Positions 2,455 to 8,787 of a stretch of 38,312 nt of DNA are shown piece by piece. Numbering within the stretch: position 1 is the first letter of the stretch; the number at the start of each line of letters is the position of its first letter. The translations under genes and the position numbers were made by a program. Location: NCBI GenBank assembly GCA_937996665.1, contig CALKUU010000314.1, positions 1-38,312 on the forward strand, written 5' to 3'. The stretch is from an uncultured Xenococcaceae cyanobacterium (GTDB taxonomy: Bacteria > Cyanobacteriota > Cyanobacteriia > Cyanobacteriales > Xenococcaceae). The notes beneath the pieces were generated by a model. That model did no database searches and had not been told where the DNA came from. It was given only the letters and a program-made list of their open reading frames with translations.

Positions 2455-3612
2455 ATGACATCTACCATCCCTAACTCTAATTTGTGTGAGTATAAACCAG
2501 GTTTAGAAGGTATTCCTGCAACAGAATCTAGTGTCTCTCATGTTGATGGTATTAACGGTATTTTGGAATACCGTGGGATTAGATTAGAGGAACTTGCTCA
2601 TAAAAGTAGTTTTTTAGAAACTGCTTATTTATTAATTTGGGGAAATCTTCCTAGTGAGCAGCAACTGCAAGATTTTCAAACTGAAATTTTGTATCATCGT
2701 CGGATTAAGTATCGTATTCGCGACATGATGAAGTGCTTTCCTGAAACTGGTCATCCGATGGATGCTCTGCAAACTTCGGCTGCTGCTTTAGGACTTTTTT
2801 ACTCGCGTCGTGCCTTAGATAACCCTGAATATATTAGGAGAGCAGTAGTTAGGCTTTTGGCAAAAATTCCGACTATGGTTGCTGCCTTTCATCAAATGAG
2901 AAGAGGTAATGATGCGATTCAACCTAATGATGATTTAGATTATGCAGCTAATTTTCTTTATATGTTAACTGAGCGATCGCCACATCCTTTAGCTGCCAAA
3001 ATTTTTGATGTGTGTTTAACTCTTCATGCAGAACATACGATTAATGCGTCAACTTTTTCAGCAATGGTGACTGCTTCAACTTTGACTGATCCTTATGCGG
3101 TGGTTGCTTCTGCGGTTGGAACTTTAGCAGGTCCACTTCATGGCGGAGCCAATGAAGAAGTTTTATCGATGCTAGATGAGATTGGTTCGATAGAAAATGT
3201 TGCCGCTTATGTCGATGAAAAAGTTGCGGGTAAGCAAAAAATTATGGGTTTTGGACACCGAGTCTATAAGGTGAAAGATCCTAGAGCTAATATTTTACAA
3301 GGATTAGTAGAAGAGTTATTTGAGAAGACTGGTTATGATCCTTACTATAAGATTGCTTTGGAGCTAGAAAAAGTAGTTGAAGGAAAATTAGGTGCGAAAG
3401 GAATTTATCCTAATGTTGATTTTTATTCTGGATTAGTTTACAGAAAGTTGGGAATTCCCAGTGATTTATTTACCCCAATTTTTGCGATCGCTCGTGTAGC
3501 TGGTTGGTTGGCACATTGGAAAGAACAGTTAAATATGAATCGTATATTTCGTCCTACTCAGGTCTATACGGGTGGGCATAACATTCCTTATATTCCAATG
3601 TCTGAAAGATAG
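2455..3612 (+). CDS. gltA: Citrate synthase
   Basis: Type II-like bacterial citrate synthase condenses oxaloacetate with acetyl-CoA to give citrate, the entry step of the cyanobacterial TCA branch toward 2-oxoglutarate and nitrogen assimilation. All 385 residues of a short-form enzyme are present. The active-site residues are visible: His229 in PLHGGANEE, His268 in GFGHRVYKVKDPRA and Asp322 in NVDFYSG. His194 in AEHTINAST is also conserved. The short form without the N-terminal NADH-binding domain is usual in cyanobacteria. A strong Shine-Dalgarno precedes the ATG and a hairpin follows the stop codon, so it is probably transcribed alone. Confidence 0.95.
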   Translation: MTSTIPNSNLCEYKPGLEGIPATESSVSHVDGINGILEYRGIRLEELAHKSSFLETAYLLIWGNLPSEQQLQDFQTEILYHRRIKYRIRDMMKCFPETGHPMDALQTSAAALGLFYSRRALDNPEYIRRAVVRLLAKIPTMVAAFHQMRRGNDAIQPNDDLDYAANFLYMLTERSPHPLAAKIFDVCLTLHAEHTINASTFSAMVTASTLTDPYAVVASAVGTLAGPLHGGANEEVLSMLDEIGSIENVAAYVDEKVAGKQKIMGFGHRVYKVKDPRANILQGLVEELFEKTGYDPYYKIALELEKVVEGKLGAKGIYPNVDFYSGLVYRKLGIPSDLFTPIFAIARVAGWLAHWKEQLNMNRIFRPTQVYTGGHNIPYIPMSER

Positions 3613-3668
3613 ATCTGGGGTTGGCGAGTTTAAGAAGATTTAGGGAAGTATTTGGTTGATTTGGCAAT

Positions 3669-3713
3669 TAAAAGCTCAATTTAGAGATTCCCAATCAGTA
3701 AATTGAGCTTTTA
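3669..3713 (+). terminator. Probable gltA terminator hairpin
   Basis: A perfect 15-bp stem (3669-3683 with 3699-3713) encloses a 15-base loop, 57 bp past the gltA stop. The stem is A-rich on its left arm and ends in four T on its right. The U tract is short, so it could also serve as an mRNA-stabilising 3' hairpin. Confidence 0.65.
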
Positions 3714-3902
3714 TCATGACTGCTATTGGGAGTTTGTTCTTAATTAAGATTTTGAGAGACATTAATTACAAAAGTTTCAAGCTAAATCGGGTTTTTGAGA
3801 TTGGTTTTGCTTGTTGAATTTTCCAAGATCTAGATATTTCGTGAGCATAACTAGTCTTGGTCTTTTGGTATTTATTTGCTGTTTTAGAATAAAGGATTAA
3901 CT

Positions 3903-3932
3903 TTGACAACCAGAATGTTGTTAATGTATTCT
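3903..3932 (+). promoter_or_regulatory. Candidate sufC promoter
   Basis: A perfect -35-like TTGACA at 3903-3908 is followed after 18 bp by TATTCT at 3927-3932, a 4-of-6 match to the -10 consensus. The first SufR half-site CAAC at 3907-3910 overlaps the -35, which is where a repressor would block polymerase. The start site is inferred, not measured. Confidence 0.45.
3907..3920. promoter_or_regulatory. SufR operator, upstream copy (CAAC-N6-GTTG)
   Basis: The sequence CAACCAGAATGTTG matches exactly the CAAC-N6-GTTG inverted repeat bound by SufR, the Fe-S-containing DeoR-family repressor of the cyanobacterial suf operon. It overlaps the candidate -35 box of sufC. Repression would be relieved when Fe-S clusters are scarce or under oxidative stress; that is known for SufR and inferred here. 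Confidence 0.75.
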
Positions 3933-3946
3933 ACAATGTACTTAAA

Positions 3947-3960
3947 CAACTAATTTGTTG
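3947..3960. promoter_or_regulatory. SufR operator, downstream copy (CAAC-N6-GTTG)
   Basis: CAACTAATTTGTTG is a second exact CAAC-N6-GTTG match, and its arms extend to AAACAAC and GTTGTTT (3944-3963). Its start is exactly 40 bp from that of the upstream copy, close to four helical turns, so both would lie on the same DNA face. Two sites are also reported in front of sufB in Synechocystis. Confidence 0.75.
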
Positions 3961-4055
3961 TTTATCCTCAAACCCATAACACAAAAAGTTTTGAAGCCTA
4001 TTTAAGTAATGGGTTTTCATAATTTTTAGCCTGATTTTACTTAAGAGCAACACTA

Positions 4056-4820
4056 ATGAGCGAGACTATTCTTTCTATTCAGAATTTAACAGCTAATGTA
4101 GACGGAACTCCGATTTTAAAAGGGGTTAACTTAGAAGTAAAAGCAGGCGAAGTTCACGCCATTATGGGCCGTAATGGTTCTGGAAAAAGTACCCTTTCGA
4201 AGATTATTGCTGGGCATCCTGACTATGAAATAACGGGTGGTGATGTTGTTTACCAAGGACAAAGCATTCTAGAGCAAGAACCTAATGAGAGAGCTTTAAA
4301 TGGTATTTTCCTAGCGTTTCAATATCCGATCGCCATTCCAGGAGTTAGTAATTTAGATTTTTTACGAGTTGCTTACAATGCTAAACGTAAACATCAAGGC
4401 TTAGAAGAGATTGACACCTTTGATTTTGAAGACTTAGTCGAAGAAAAATTAGAAATTGTCAAAATGAACTCTAGTTTTCTCGAAAGAAGTCTCAATGAAG
4501 GATTTTCTGGAGGAGAGAAAAAGCGCAACGAGATTCTGCAAATGGCAGTTTTAGATCCTACTTTGATGATTCTTGATGAAATTGATTCTGGGTTAGATAT
4601 TGACGCTCTCAAGATCGTCTCAGAAGGAGTTAATTATTTGAAGACTCCTGACAAAGGACATTTAATTATTACTCACTATCAAAGATTACTAGATTATATC
4701 GAGCCTGATTTTGTTCATGTTATGCAAGCAGGCAAAATTGTTAAGAGTGGCGGCAAGGAATTAGCAAAAGAACTAGAGTCTCGCGGCTATGAATTTTTAG
4801 AAAAAGCTGCGATCGCCTAG
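4056..4820 (+). CDS. sufC: Fe-S cluster assembly ATPase SufC
   Basis: SufC is the ATPase of the SufBCD scaffold that builds Fe-S clusters in the cytosol. The 254-residue length is standard. Walker A GRNGSGKS sits at 38-45, the ABC signature SGGEKKR at 151-157, Walker B with [12 protein letters not shown] at 170-181 and the H-loop His in IITHYQR near 206. AAGAG lies about 9 bases upstream of the ATG. It is the first gene of a sufC-sufD-sufS run behind a double SufR operator. In the usual cyanobacterial order sufB precedes it, but here citrate synthase does, so its partner must be encoded elsewhere. Confidence 0.95.
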
Positions 4821-4928: not shown

Positions 4929-6230
4929 ATGACTCAGGTAAGTACAAATCCATCTCTTCAGCATGACCCTTTTGTTAGCAAAATCCTTGCTCAGCGTCCT
5001 GAGGCACCACTAACTCAATTGGATGAGGAAACTAGTAATTGGTTGCAAAATTTGCGAGAGCAGTCGGCATCTTGGGTATCTCGTTTAGCGTCTCCTACTA
5101 AGAAGGATGAGGAATGGCGATTTACCGATATTTCTGAATTGTTAGATTTAAATTTGGAGAATAGTCAGAAAAATTATTCCCATTTCCCAAAGCTAGACCA
5201 AGAAGATATTCACGTGGTTTTTGTAAATGGCAGTTATGCCGCTGATTTATCTAGTATTGAGGGTTTACCAGAAGGAATTTATGTTGGCAATTTAATTAAC
5301 TTACCTGAAGCTTTTTGTAAGTATTTTCGTCCTTTTTTAGGTACTTTGCCAGGTAAGGAAGAAGTTTTTACAGCTCTCAATACTTCTAGTATTAGTGATG
5401 TAGCAATTATTTGGGCTGCACCTAACACAGTTGTTGACAAGCCTATCCACATATCTTTTATCTCGGTAGCAGAGGATCAAGTAACTTTTTCTCAGCCCAG
5501 AAGTTGGATAGTTGCCGAACAAAATTGCCAACTAACTATTGTTGAAGAGTATCAAGGGACTGGTACTTATTTCACTAATAGTGTGACTGAAGTTTTCTTA
5601 GGAGAAAATGCTCAAATAAATCAAACTCGTTGGCAGCATGAATCTGATACGGCCTATCATGTTGGGAAAACTGCGGTTAATCAAAAACAAGACAGTCGTT
5701 ATACTCTCTCCGAAATTAATTTTGGTGGTAAGTTATCTCGCCATACTCCTGAAGTCCATCAGGATGGGGTACAAACTACTACTAATCTCAATGGTTTAAC
5801 GATCGCCAAAAATGAGCAAACTGCTGATACCCATAGTGTTATTCAGCTTAATCATCCTCATGGAATTACTGATCAATTACACAAGTGTATAGCTGATGAT
5901 CGTGCTCATACAGTTTTTAATGGCAAGGTATTTGTGCCTAAGCCAGCTCAGATGACTGATGCTAAGCAACTAAATCGTAATTTGTTACTTTCCTCGAAGG
6001 CACGAGTAGATACCAAGCCAGAATTACAAATTACTGCTGATAACGTCAAATGCTCTCATGGAGCAACAGTTAGTCAGTTACAGGCTGATGAAATTTTTTA
6101 TCTACGTAGTCGCGGTTTAAGCGAAGATGATGCTCGTCAATTGTTAATTGATGCTTTTGTCAGCGAAATTATTGAACGAATTCCTGCCGATTTAACTCGC
6201 AAGAGAATTCAAGCCTGTTTATCTGATTAG
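4929..6230 (+). CDS. sufD: Fe-S cluster assembly scaffold protein SufD
   Basis: SufD is the non-ATPase scaffold subunit that pairs with SufB and SufC. The protein has 433 residues, a normal length. The N-terminal helical region includes the EEWRFTDIS motif (about 61-69), typical of SufD, followed by a long beta-helix core. The C-terminal family block runs through ELQITADNVKCSHGATV and ends with the helical DEIFYLRSRGLSEDDARQLL segment. It follows sufC by 108 bp and precedes sufS by 81 bp on the same strand. SufB resembles SufD, but the C-terminal block and RFTDIS pattern fit SufD better. Confidence 0.93.
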   Translation: MTQVSTNPSLQHDPFVSKILAQRPEAPLTQLDEETSNWLQNLREQSASWVSRLASPTKKDEEWRFTDISELLDLNLENSQKNYSHFPKLDQEDIHVVFVNGSYAADLSSIEGLPEGIYVGNLINLPEAFCKYFRPFLGTLPGKEEVFTALNTSSISDVAIIWAAPNTVVDKPIHISFISVAEDQVTFSQPRSWIVAEQNCQLTIVEEYQGTGTYFTNSVTEVFLGENAQINQTRWQHESDTAYHVGKTAVNQKQDSRYTLSEINFGGKLSRHTPEVHQDGVQTTTNLNGLTIAKNEQTADTHSVIQLNHPHGITDQLHKCIADDRAHTVFNGKVFVPKPAQMTDAKQLNRNLLLSSKARVDTKPELQITADNVKCSHGATVSQLQADEIFYLRSRGLSEDDARQLLIDAFVSEIIERIPADLTRKRIQACLSD

Positions 6231-6311: not shown

Positions 6312-7571
6312 ATGACCTTGATTCAAGAAAAGACCCTCGGAGATAAAGTCAGAAAAGATTTTCCTATTTTGCATCAAGACATTCATGGTCAGCCTTTAAT
6401 TTATTTTGATAGTGCAGCTAGTTCTCAGAAGCCACAGCAAGTCTTGGATACTTTGCTCAATTACTATCAGCAAGATAATGCTAATGTCCATCGAGGAGCA
6501 CATACCTTAAGTAATCGTGCTACTGATGCTTATGAGGGTGCTAGAGATAAGATTGCTCGCTTTATTAATGCTACTTGTCGAGAAGAAATTGTTTATACCC
6601 GTAATGCTTCTGAAGCAATTAACTTAGTTGCTTATACCTGGGGTCTGGTTAACCTCAATCAAGGTGATGAAATTATTTTATCGGTGATGGAACACCATAG
6701 TAATATCGTTCCTTGGCAAATTATTGCTCAAAAAACAGGTGCTGTTATTAAGTGGATTCAGTTAACTAAAGACGAGTCTCTTGATTTAGACAATTTTAAA
6801 TCTCTACTTTCAGAGAAAACTAAACTTGTCTCAGTGGTTCATGTTTCTAATACTTTAGGGGTAGTTAATCCCGTTGCTGAGATTACACGTTTGGCTCACC
6901 GTCAGGGAGCGAAAGTACTAATTGATGCTTGTCAGAGTGTTCCTCATATGCCGATTGATGTTCAGGCAATTGGTTGTGATTGGCTAGTCGCTTCTGGTCA
7001 TAAGATGTGTGCGACTACTGGAATTGGTTTTCTTTATGGTAAAAAAGCAATTTTAGAAGCAATGCCGCCGTTTTTGGGTGGTGGTGAGATGATCGATCAA
7101 GTTTATTTTGACCATTCTACTTATGGTGAGCTTCCCCATAAATTTGAAGCGGGAACTCCTGCCATTGGTGAGGCGATCGCTTTAGGCGCGGCGATCGACT
7201 ATTTGAATGAGATTGGGATGGATAAGATTCATGCTTATGAAGCAGAACTAACTGCCTATCTTTTTAAAAAACTGGAAACAATTCCTAATTTACGTATTTA
7301 TGGTGCTAAACCTAATTCGAAAGGAGAAGGAAGAGCAGCTTTGGCGGCTTTTAATGTTCCAGGAATTCATGCTAGTGACTTGGCAACCCTGATGGATCAT
7401 GAAGGGATTGCAATTCGTTCTGGACACCACTGTACTCAACCTTTACATCGTCTTTTAGAGGCTTCAGGTAGTGCTAGGGCTAGTTTGTATTTTTATAATA
7501 CTCGTGATGAGATAGATCGTTTTGTGGTTGTTTTACAAGAGACAATCGAATTTTTTACTAGTATGGCTTGA
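6312..7571 (+). CDS. sufS: Group II cysteine desulfurase SufS
   Basis: SufS is a PLP enzyme that removes sulfur from cysteine, leaving alanine and a persulfide that feeds the Suf scaffold. The 419 residues contain the PLP-lysine Lys231 in [11 protein letters not shown], His129 in MEHHSN stacking over the cofactor, Asp205 in LIDACQS, and the persulfide Cys374 in [11 protein letters not shown]. The long RSGHHC spacing and the lack of an extended flexible Cys loop mark the SufS/CsdA group rather than IscS. It is third in the suf run, and sipA starts 29 bp behind it. Confidence 0.95.
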
Positions 7572-7600: not shown

Positions 7601-7822
7601 ATGAGTGATTTAAAAGTAGGGGCTGAAGTTAAACTTATTGCTCTGCCTGATTTTGTGAAAACTGCTGATCCGATGCCGATGTTGCGATCGCCAGATTTAT
7701 TAAAAATTGGTGAGCAAGGTGTCATTATAGATCGTCGTCCTGGAGGTTATTGGGGAGTAAAATTTGCAAGTGGATCTTTTTTATTAGATAGTCAGTATTT
7801 ACACCTAATTAATCAAGGTTAA
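7601..7822 (+). CDS. sipA: SipA-like regulatory protein (DUF3148)
   Basis: SipA is a small beta-rich protein that binds the histidine kinase NblS and stimulates its activity, linking it to high-light and nutrient stress control in cyanobacteria. The 73 residues carry the family pattern: LIALPDFVKTADPMPMLR (about 12-29), then GEQGVIIDRRPGGYWGVKF and LLDSQYL near the end. A good AAGGAT Shine-Dalgarno at 7590-7595 lies 5 bases before the ATG. The 29-bp gap after sufS suggests read-through from the suf promoter. The identification rests on motif memory; the link with Fe-S assembly is my inference. Confidence 0.8.
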   Translation: MSDLKVGAEVKLIALPDFVKTADPMPMLRSPDLLKIGEQGVIIDRRPGGYWGVKFASGSFLLDSQYLHLINQG

Positions 7823-8301: not shown

Positions 8302-8787
8302 ATGGATGCAATTCAACATGGTGGAGATCCTCAAGTTGGGAATCTAGCTACTCCTCTTAATTCTTCTGGTTTTAGTACTGCTTTTATCCGTAACTTACCT
8401 GCTTATCGTGCCGATCTTTCTGCATTTCGTCGCGGTTTAGAAGTTGGTATGGCTCATGGATATTTCTTATATGGACCATTTTTAGTTCTTGGCCCTCTTA
8501 GAAGTACTGAAATAGCTGAAGTTGCTGGTGTTCTCTCTGCTGTTGGTTTAGTTTCTATTTTGACAATCGCTCTATCTTTATATGCTAGTGCTATGGGTGG
8601 TTCACCTATTGCTACAGTTACCACTCCCGATATCCCTGAAGATTTGACAACTAAAGCTGGTTGGAGTGAATTTGCAGGTGGATTTTTTGTTGGTGGTTGT
8701 GGCGGTGCCGCTTTTGCTTGGTTTTTATGCTCCACACCCCACCTAATTCCTTTACAAGAAGTTGTTAAGGGTGTTTGGTCTTCATAA
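8302..8787 (+). CDS. psaL: Photosystem I subunit XI (PsaL)
   Basis: PsaL is the thylakoid subunit at the centre of the photosystem I trimer and binds chlorophyll and carotenoid. At 161 residues it has the usual cyanobacterial length. The N-terminal stromal part contains NLATPLNSS and FIRNLPAYRADLSAFRRGLEVGMAHGYF, and the first membrane helix continues through GPFLVLGPLR. Two further helices lie at about 70-95 and 120-142. The C terminus is short (LQEVVKGVWSS). It is transcribed away from psaI and ends at its own terminator. It sits next to psaI and not in a psaF-psaJ-psaL cluster. Confidence 0.96.
   Translation: MDAIQHGGDPQVGNLATPLNSSGFSTAFIRNLPAYRADLSAFRRGLEVGMAHGYFLYGPFLVLGPLRSTEIAEVAGVLSAVGLVSILTIALSLYASAMGGSPIATVTTPDIPEDLTTKAGWSEFAGGFFVGGCGGAAFAWFLCSTPHLIPLQEVVKGVWSS

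Follow-up and report, generated by a model that had tools for sequence, protein, structure and literature searches.

Genes encoding the parts of one essential complex usually stay linked. The window, by which we mean the whole stretch of 38,312 nt analysed here from an uncultured Xenococcaceae cyanobacterium (contig CALKUU010000314.1, below C314), carries sufC, sufD and sufS in a row, headed by two operator sites of the SufR type and with no sufB before them. The locus thereby raises the question of where sufB is encoded, and how the two parts of the scaffold complex may be controlled. According to reviews of the system, oxidised holo-SufR binds CAAC-N6-GTTG and represses both sufBCDS and sufR, the repression being relieved by reduction or loss of the cluster (PMC7058544, PMC13421787, PMC8593673).

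Results

The sufCDS genes of the window follow a double operator

Profile searches agreed with the original prediction that sufC is the first suf gene and that a citrate synthase gene lies upstream of it (Table 1). The SufC cut-off was exceeded at one place in the genome, the sufC of the window, and the sole match to the SufB profile on this contig was sufD, which remained under the cut-off. The predicted lack of sufB in the gap between citrate synthase and sufC was borne out as well: a permissive tblastn search with SufB found no relic of the gene in positions 3613–4055, where the single match was 8 residues long (E = 10). Downstream of sufS, the window encodes a CRR42-like small protein (7601–7822), a similar gene also following sufS in the genome G001, and psaL of photosystem I (8302–8787).

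Two exact sites corresponding to the operator consensus CAACNNNNNNGTTG (CAAC-N6-GTTG) precede sufC at a distance of 40 bp, start to start, and a TTGACA overlaps the first of them by two bases, just as had been noted before. These are the sole exact matches in the window. Two or more matches were obtained in 6 of 100 shuffles, and the bare count of two operator sites per window is weak evidence. Inside the control block, TTGACA-N18-TATTCT was the sole promoter-like match in a consensus scan; over the region, the scan gave 2 matches versus 2.1 in shuffles, i.e., not above chance.

Table 1. Positions of the suf genes, the neighbouring gene and the candidate control elements in the window
Feature	Position	Strand	Basis and remarks
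Citrate synthase gene, outside the suf unit	2455–3612	+	NCBIfam NF010639, 703 bits
SufR-type control block	3900–3964	+	52/65 bases identical to its counterpart between sufR and sufB (C246 from 28136)
TTGACA, putative −35 box	3903–3908	+	consensus scan
Operator site 1, CAACCAGAATGTTG	3907–3920	n/a	exact motif match; start 149 bp before sufC
TATTCT, putative −10 box	3927–3932	+	consensus scan; 18 nt from TTGACA
TACAAT, second −10 candidate	3932–3937		within the sufC control block
Operator site 2, CAACTAATTTGTTG	3947–3960	n/a	exact motif match; start 109 bp before sufC
sufC	4056–4820	+	NCBIfam TIGR01978, 360 bits, above cut-off
sufD	4929–6230	+	NCBIfam TIGR01981, 292 bits, above cut-off
sufS	6312–7571	+	NCBIfam TIGR01979, 615 bits, above cut-off

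sufB remains beside a divergent sufR at another locus

The draft genome comprises 349 contigs, and a search of these with the SufB profile revealed sufB in two pieces, one at the end of C246 and the other at the end of C102. The two contig ends have exactly the same 141 bases, a stretch with no further copy in the genome, and the simplest reading is a single sufB gene interrupted by the assembly. The sufR gene was found on C246 (TIGR02702, 303 bits), divergent from sufB and about 270 bp away from it; since this is the single place in the genome recognised by the SufR profile, there is no sufR beside sufCDS. The encoded SufR has the ligands C-X12-C-X13-C-X14-C (cysteines 167, 180, 194 and 209), kept in 60 of the 60 rows compared. 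No relic of sufC was found 3′ of sufB on C102. The gene convergent with sufB on C102 (L021, 12145–12711) matches the Imm11 immunity protein family (PF07791, 38 bits) and adjoins a 487-aa frame with repeated stretches.

With sufB on C246/C102 and sufCDS on C314, the four genes sufB, C, D and S do not form one operon, and the scaffold genes occupy two loci, as had been supposed. While this separation stands, the direction proposed for it, that sufB had been moved out and the control region had stayed with sufC, has to be reversed: sufB did not leave its control region, because it still adjoins the divergent sufR with the block between them, as in intact relatives. Rather, sufCDS would be the displaced piece, furnished with a copy.

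The two control blocks are alike beyond the operators

The double operator, sought at sufB and sufR to check the original prediction, is indeed present in the sufR-sufB gap, as one exact site and one with a single mismatch. Between this block and that before sufC, 52 of 65 bases are identical, spacer included, the flanks giving 17/60 and 21/60. In the whole genome the 54-bp operator pair was met with no mismatch once (in the window) and with one mismatch once (in the sufR-sufB gap). With up to three mismatches allowed, the pair pattern was not commoner than its control (15 versus 19 places), nor were single CAAC-N6-GTTG sites enriched (76 versus 94 for the reversed control). Since single sites are not enriched genome-wide, a chance motif had to be weighed; what counters it is the paired spacing, together with the similarity across the entire block and the evidence of the relatives.

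The comparison was then extended to the family f1, to which this genome belongs. In 21 family genomes (the set without G004, G018, G024, G003, G006 and G011, the last three of which offer no pair), the 26-base spacer between the operators was on average identical at 21.6 of 26 positions in the sufB and sufC leaders, versus a shuffled mean of 8.6 and a shuffled maximum of 15. As judged by eye, the base after TAATGTA (or its variant) is T or G in the anchored f1 sufC leaders and A in the f1 sufB leaders, the irregular G024 excepted; this pattern is weakly consistent with a single copying event.

The split is conserved in the family

Both sufB and sufD were located in 24 of the 26 relatives sampled from f1 (G006 gave no sufB match, and G011 no sufD match). 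The two genes lie apart in 23 of the 24, being near each other only in G003, and in five split genomes a single contig holds both, with 57 kb to 3.4 Mb between them. Adjacent, divergent sufR and sufB were seen at 26 loci of the family, counting those of this genome and of G003, and among these only the G003 locus also holds sufC (some flanks are short). Comparison of the junction upstream of sufC with that in relatives gave a divided answer: the sufC leader is the same in relatives, and the citrate synthase neighbour was seen in this genome only.

A SufR-type site is present in all 25 split family sufC leaders, exact in 22 and with one mismatch only in 3; an exact pair at 40 bp was seen in 14 leaders and one exact site in 8. 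Furthermore, TTGACA-N18-TANNYT is present in 23 of these 25 leaders and TTGACA-N23-TA(C/A)AAT in 24. The stringent half-promoter pattern CAACNNNNNNGTTGNTAATGTA gave 28 matches across 27 family genomes (at least one in 18 of the 27), and the reversed control gave 2. A comparison of coordinates showed that all 28 matches are sufB or sufC leaders; no further regulon member carrying this pattern was found in the 27 genomes.

The leaders are not equally preserved everywhere. In the genus g8, TTGACA is missing from its place in 13/13 sufB leaders, 12 of which keep two operators within one mismatch, while in the sufC leaders TTGACA-N23-TA(C/A)AAT is kept in 12/13, and 9/13 lack any site of up to one mismatch at the position 40 bp ahead of site 2. 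This divergence of the sufB and sufC leaders hints that the two promoters may differ in control strength.

Behind sufS, on the same strand, a 73-aa gene was observed at 194 and 256 bp in two family members (L135 of G004 and L144 of G014, respectively); that of G004 matches the ferredoxin-thioredoxin reductase variable alpha chain (PF02941), which may be compared with the reported suf-ftrC link.

Intact operons and other split lineages

Intact operons served as controls. An exact operator before sufC was found in none of 30 intact genomes or loci, and a one-mismatch site in four. These controls include five loci (L052–L056) out of 80 from a SufC scan of named genomes, mostly distant bacteria, as well as G027, which is broken by contig ends and presumed intact, with a sufC leader of 247 bases. 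Among the split sufC leaders of f1 and f14, 28 of 31 carry an exact site, the chance being 0.4% for each in resampled sequence, with related genomes counting as non-independent trials.

In a phylum sample of 291 genomes, at least 157 gave matches of the sufB/sufD type. Among the matches listed, 15 genomes are split, with coordinates assessed by eye and the suf genes of some on different contigs: two of f1, six of f14, four of f40, two of f39, and G147 of f8. Genomes at contig edges or outside the matches listed (e.g., G027, G064, G076, G172, G213, G240 and G317), together with the lowest-scoring matches, were left out of this call.

In f14, sufB, sufCD, sufR and sufS lie at separate places, and exact operators precede sufB, sufC and sufR in 6/6 sampled genomes each; the sufS leaders have an exact operator in 0/6 and a one-mismatch site in one case. 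In G147, sufR, sufB and sufC stay together and sufD-sufS are on another contig, where an exact operator precedes sufD, the first gene of the displaced piece. What the leaders of f14 and G147 share is limited to a site plus a −10-like box and does not extend to the full double block. In the split f39 and f40, an exact site before sufC was found in 0/6 genomes, one of which, G315, has a one-mismatch site; the operator is thus not needed everywhere.

The number of splits

In a quick concatenated SufBCDS tree, f1 and f14 are kept apart, with intact rows next to each, and so their splits look independent; this tree came with a long-branch warning, and its G011 row is only 30% filled. A single branch of the same tree (99, starred) sets the family f1 off from the other rows.

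Within f1, the number of events depends on G003, where the suf genes are in one locus and in the intact order (L134); here sufB and sufC flank a DUF29 gene, and sufC has no operator before it. G003 is nested inside the family both in a careful tree (93/87) and in the quick one, and this placement complicates a single fission. Another concatenated tree put it outside the split members with a support of 56, and a single clade of split members was not rejected by the AU test (p 0.27); the careful tree and the test were run without G006, G011 and G024. In single-gene trees the position of G003 is weak or discordant, the innermost large group around it in the SufC and SufD trees consisting of family rows only. 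The neighbours of both suf loci are so strongly rearranged among family members that they cannot tell one family split from two. Response-regulator neighbours common to G004, G010 and G006 were considered as shared context and rejected, being only 48–49% identical and likely paralogues. G003 also encodes two more SufR-like proteins (C204:287-886, 140 bits; C188:29910-30512, 138 bits; family cut-off 178.8).

Discussion

In this work, we found sufB and sufCDS at two loci with a common control block, an arrangement conserved in the family, and splits of the operon that recur elsewhere in the phylum, all of which can be read directly from the genomes. Very probably, the ancestral sufR/sufBCDS locus underwent operon fission with copying of its promoter, such that SufR control would have been kept and SufB and SufCDS would be co-regulated though unlinked. 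After the fission, sufB would have stayed beside the divergent sufR, and sufC-D-S would have come to lie elsewhere behind a copy of the double-operator promoter, either because the locus was duplicated and the two copies lost complementary genes, or by moving together with the promoter; no intermediate was seen. SufR binding, repression, the start site and the origin of the block by copying are inferred, the regulatory part from sequence conservation. SufR, whose 4Fe-4S cluster reports the iron-sulphur status, would bind sites 1 and 2 of either locus as long as clusters abound, and it could block the polymerase there, because site 1 falls in the interval that separates the putative −35 box from the putative −10 box and site 2 closely follows the expected start. 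When clusters are scarce, SufR would leave both loci, so that SufB and SufCDS would rise together.

Instead of being copied, the operators might have been gained anew in the sufC leader once the operon had been split, through selected point changes. Operators are short, and the f14 and G147 leaders, with no more in common than a site and a −10-like box, would suit such a gain; however, the f1 spacer, which is no part of the operators, is far more alike at the two loci than its shuffled versions, and the sufD leader of G147 matches its own sufB leader at 32 of 41 bases (stretches picked by eye). We therefore regard a new gain as unlikely. Still less probable is a scenario in which sufCDS and its promoter came from another cyanobacterium and the native copy was lost. 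The strongly differing gene neighbourhoods of both loci within the family might speak for a transfer, but it is opposed by the concatenated tree, where a single branch sets the family off, by the family-only group around G003 in the SufC and SufD trees, and by the resemblance of the sufC leaders to the family's own sufB leaders.

An error of assembly or binning, with a chimeric sufC contig or with sufB truly adjoining sufC, had been foreseen as a way in which the original prediction could fail. It might be suspected in a draft where sufB itself is cut by contig ends and where citrate synthase stands beside sufC as in none of the relatives seen. Yet sufB and sufD are separated in 23 of 24 relatives as well, five of which have both genes on a single contig, and the same sufC leader is present in 25 of 25 split genomes; this explanation appears extremely improbable.

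Taken together, the genome comparisons allow us to conclude that the split arrangement with its shared switch is real and conserved, and that it is a variant of the known SufR-suf system, formed most probably by fission and promoter copying. An essential operon has been divided repeatedly, and three lineages have a copy of the switch, or a similar site, ahead of the detached piece. Two other split lineages have no exact site, which makes it testable whether shared repression replaces linkage in balancing SufB against SufC/SufD. More tentatively, fission with copying of the SufR promoter may be a recurrent cyanobacterial route, with breakpoints between sufB and sufCDS, among sufR, sufB, sufCD and sufS, and between sufBC and sufDS, the copies then specialising; we hold this wider proposal to be possible rather than probable. 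If so, the supplies of SufB and SufCDS would answer SufR with different strength, and the ratio of the scaffold complexes would shift with the iron-sulphur status.

In the literature searched, mostly at the level of abstracts, no description of a split cyanobacterial suf operon was recognised; RegPrecise may hold predictions for split genomes. The picture of one sufBCDS operon in cyanobacteria, as drawn in the reviews (PMC7058544, PMC13421787, PMC8593673), is qualified by the arrangement found here. The sufR/sufBCDS locus of Synechocystis PCC 6803 with its CAAC-N6-GTTG operators (Wang 2004 and Shen 2007, as cited in these reviews) resembles the present case in having a SufR with four cysteines, divergent sufR and sufB, the same operator and the same four suf genes. 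It differs in that the reviews present it as one sufBCDS operon, whereas here sufCDS lies away from sufB, behind a copied control block of its own. In Synechococcus PCC 7942, SufR is reported to control ftrC, an extra gene co-transcribed with suf (PMC13421787). The common point is a SufR target beyond the core genes; the difference is that an extra gene joins suf in PCC 7942, and that in the present genome it is the core operon that has been split up.
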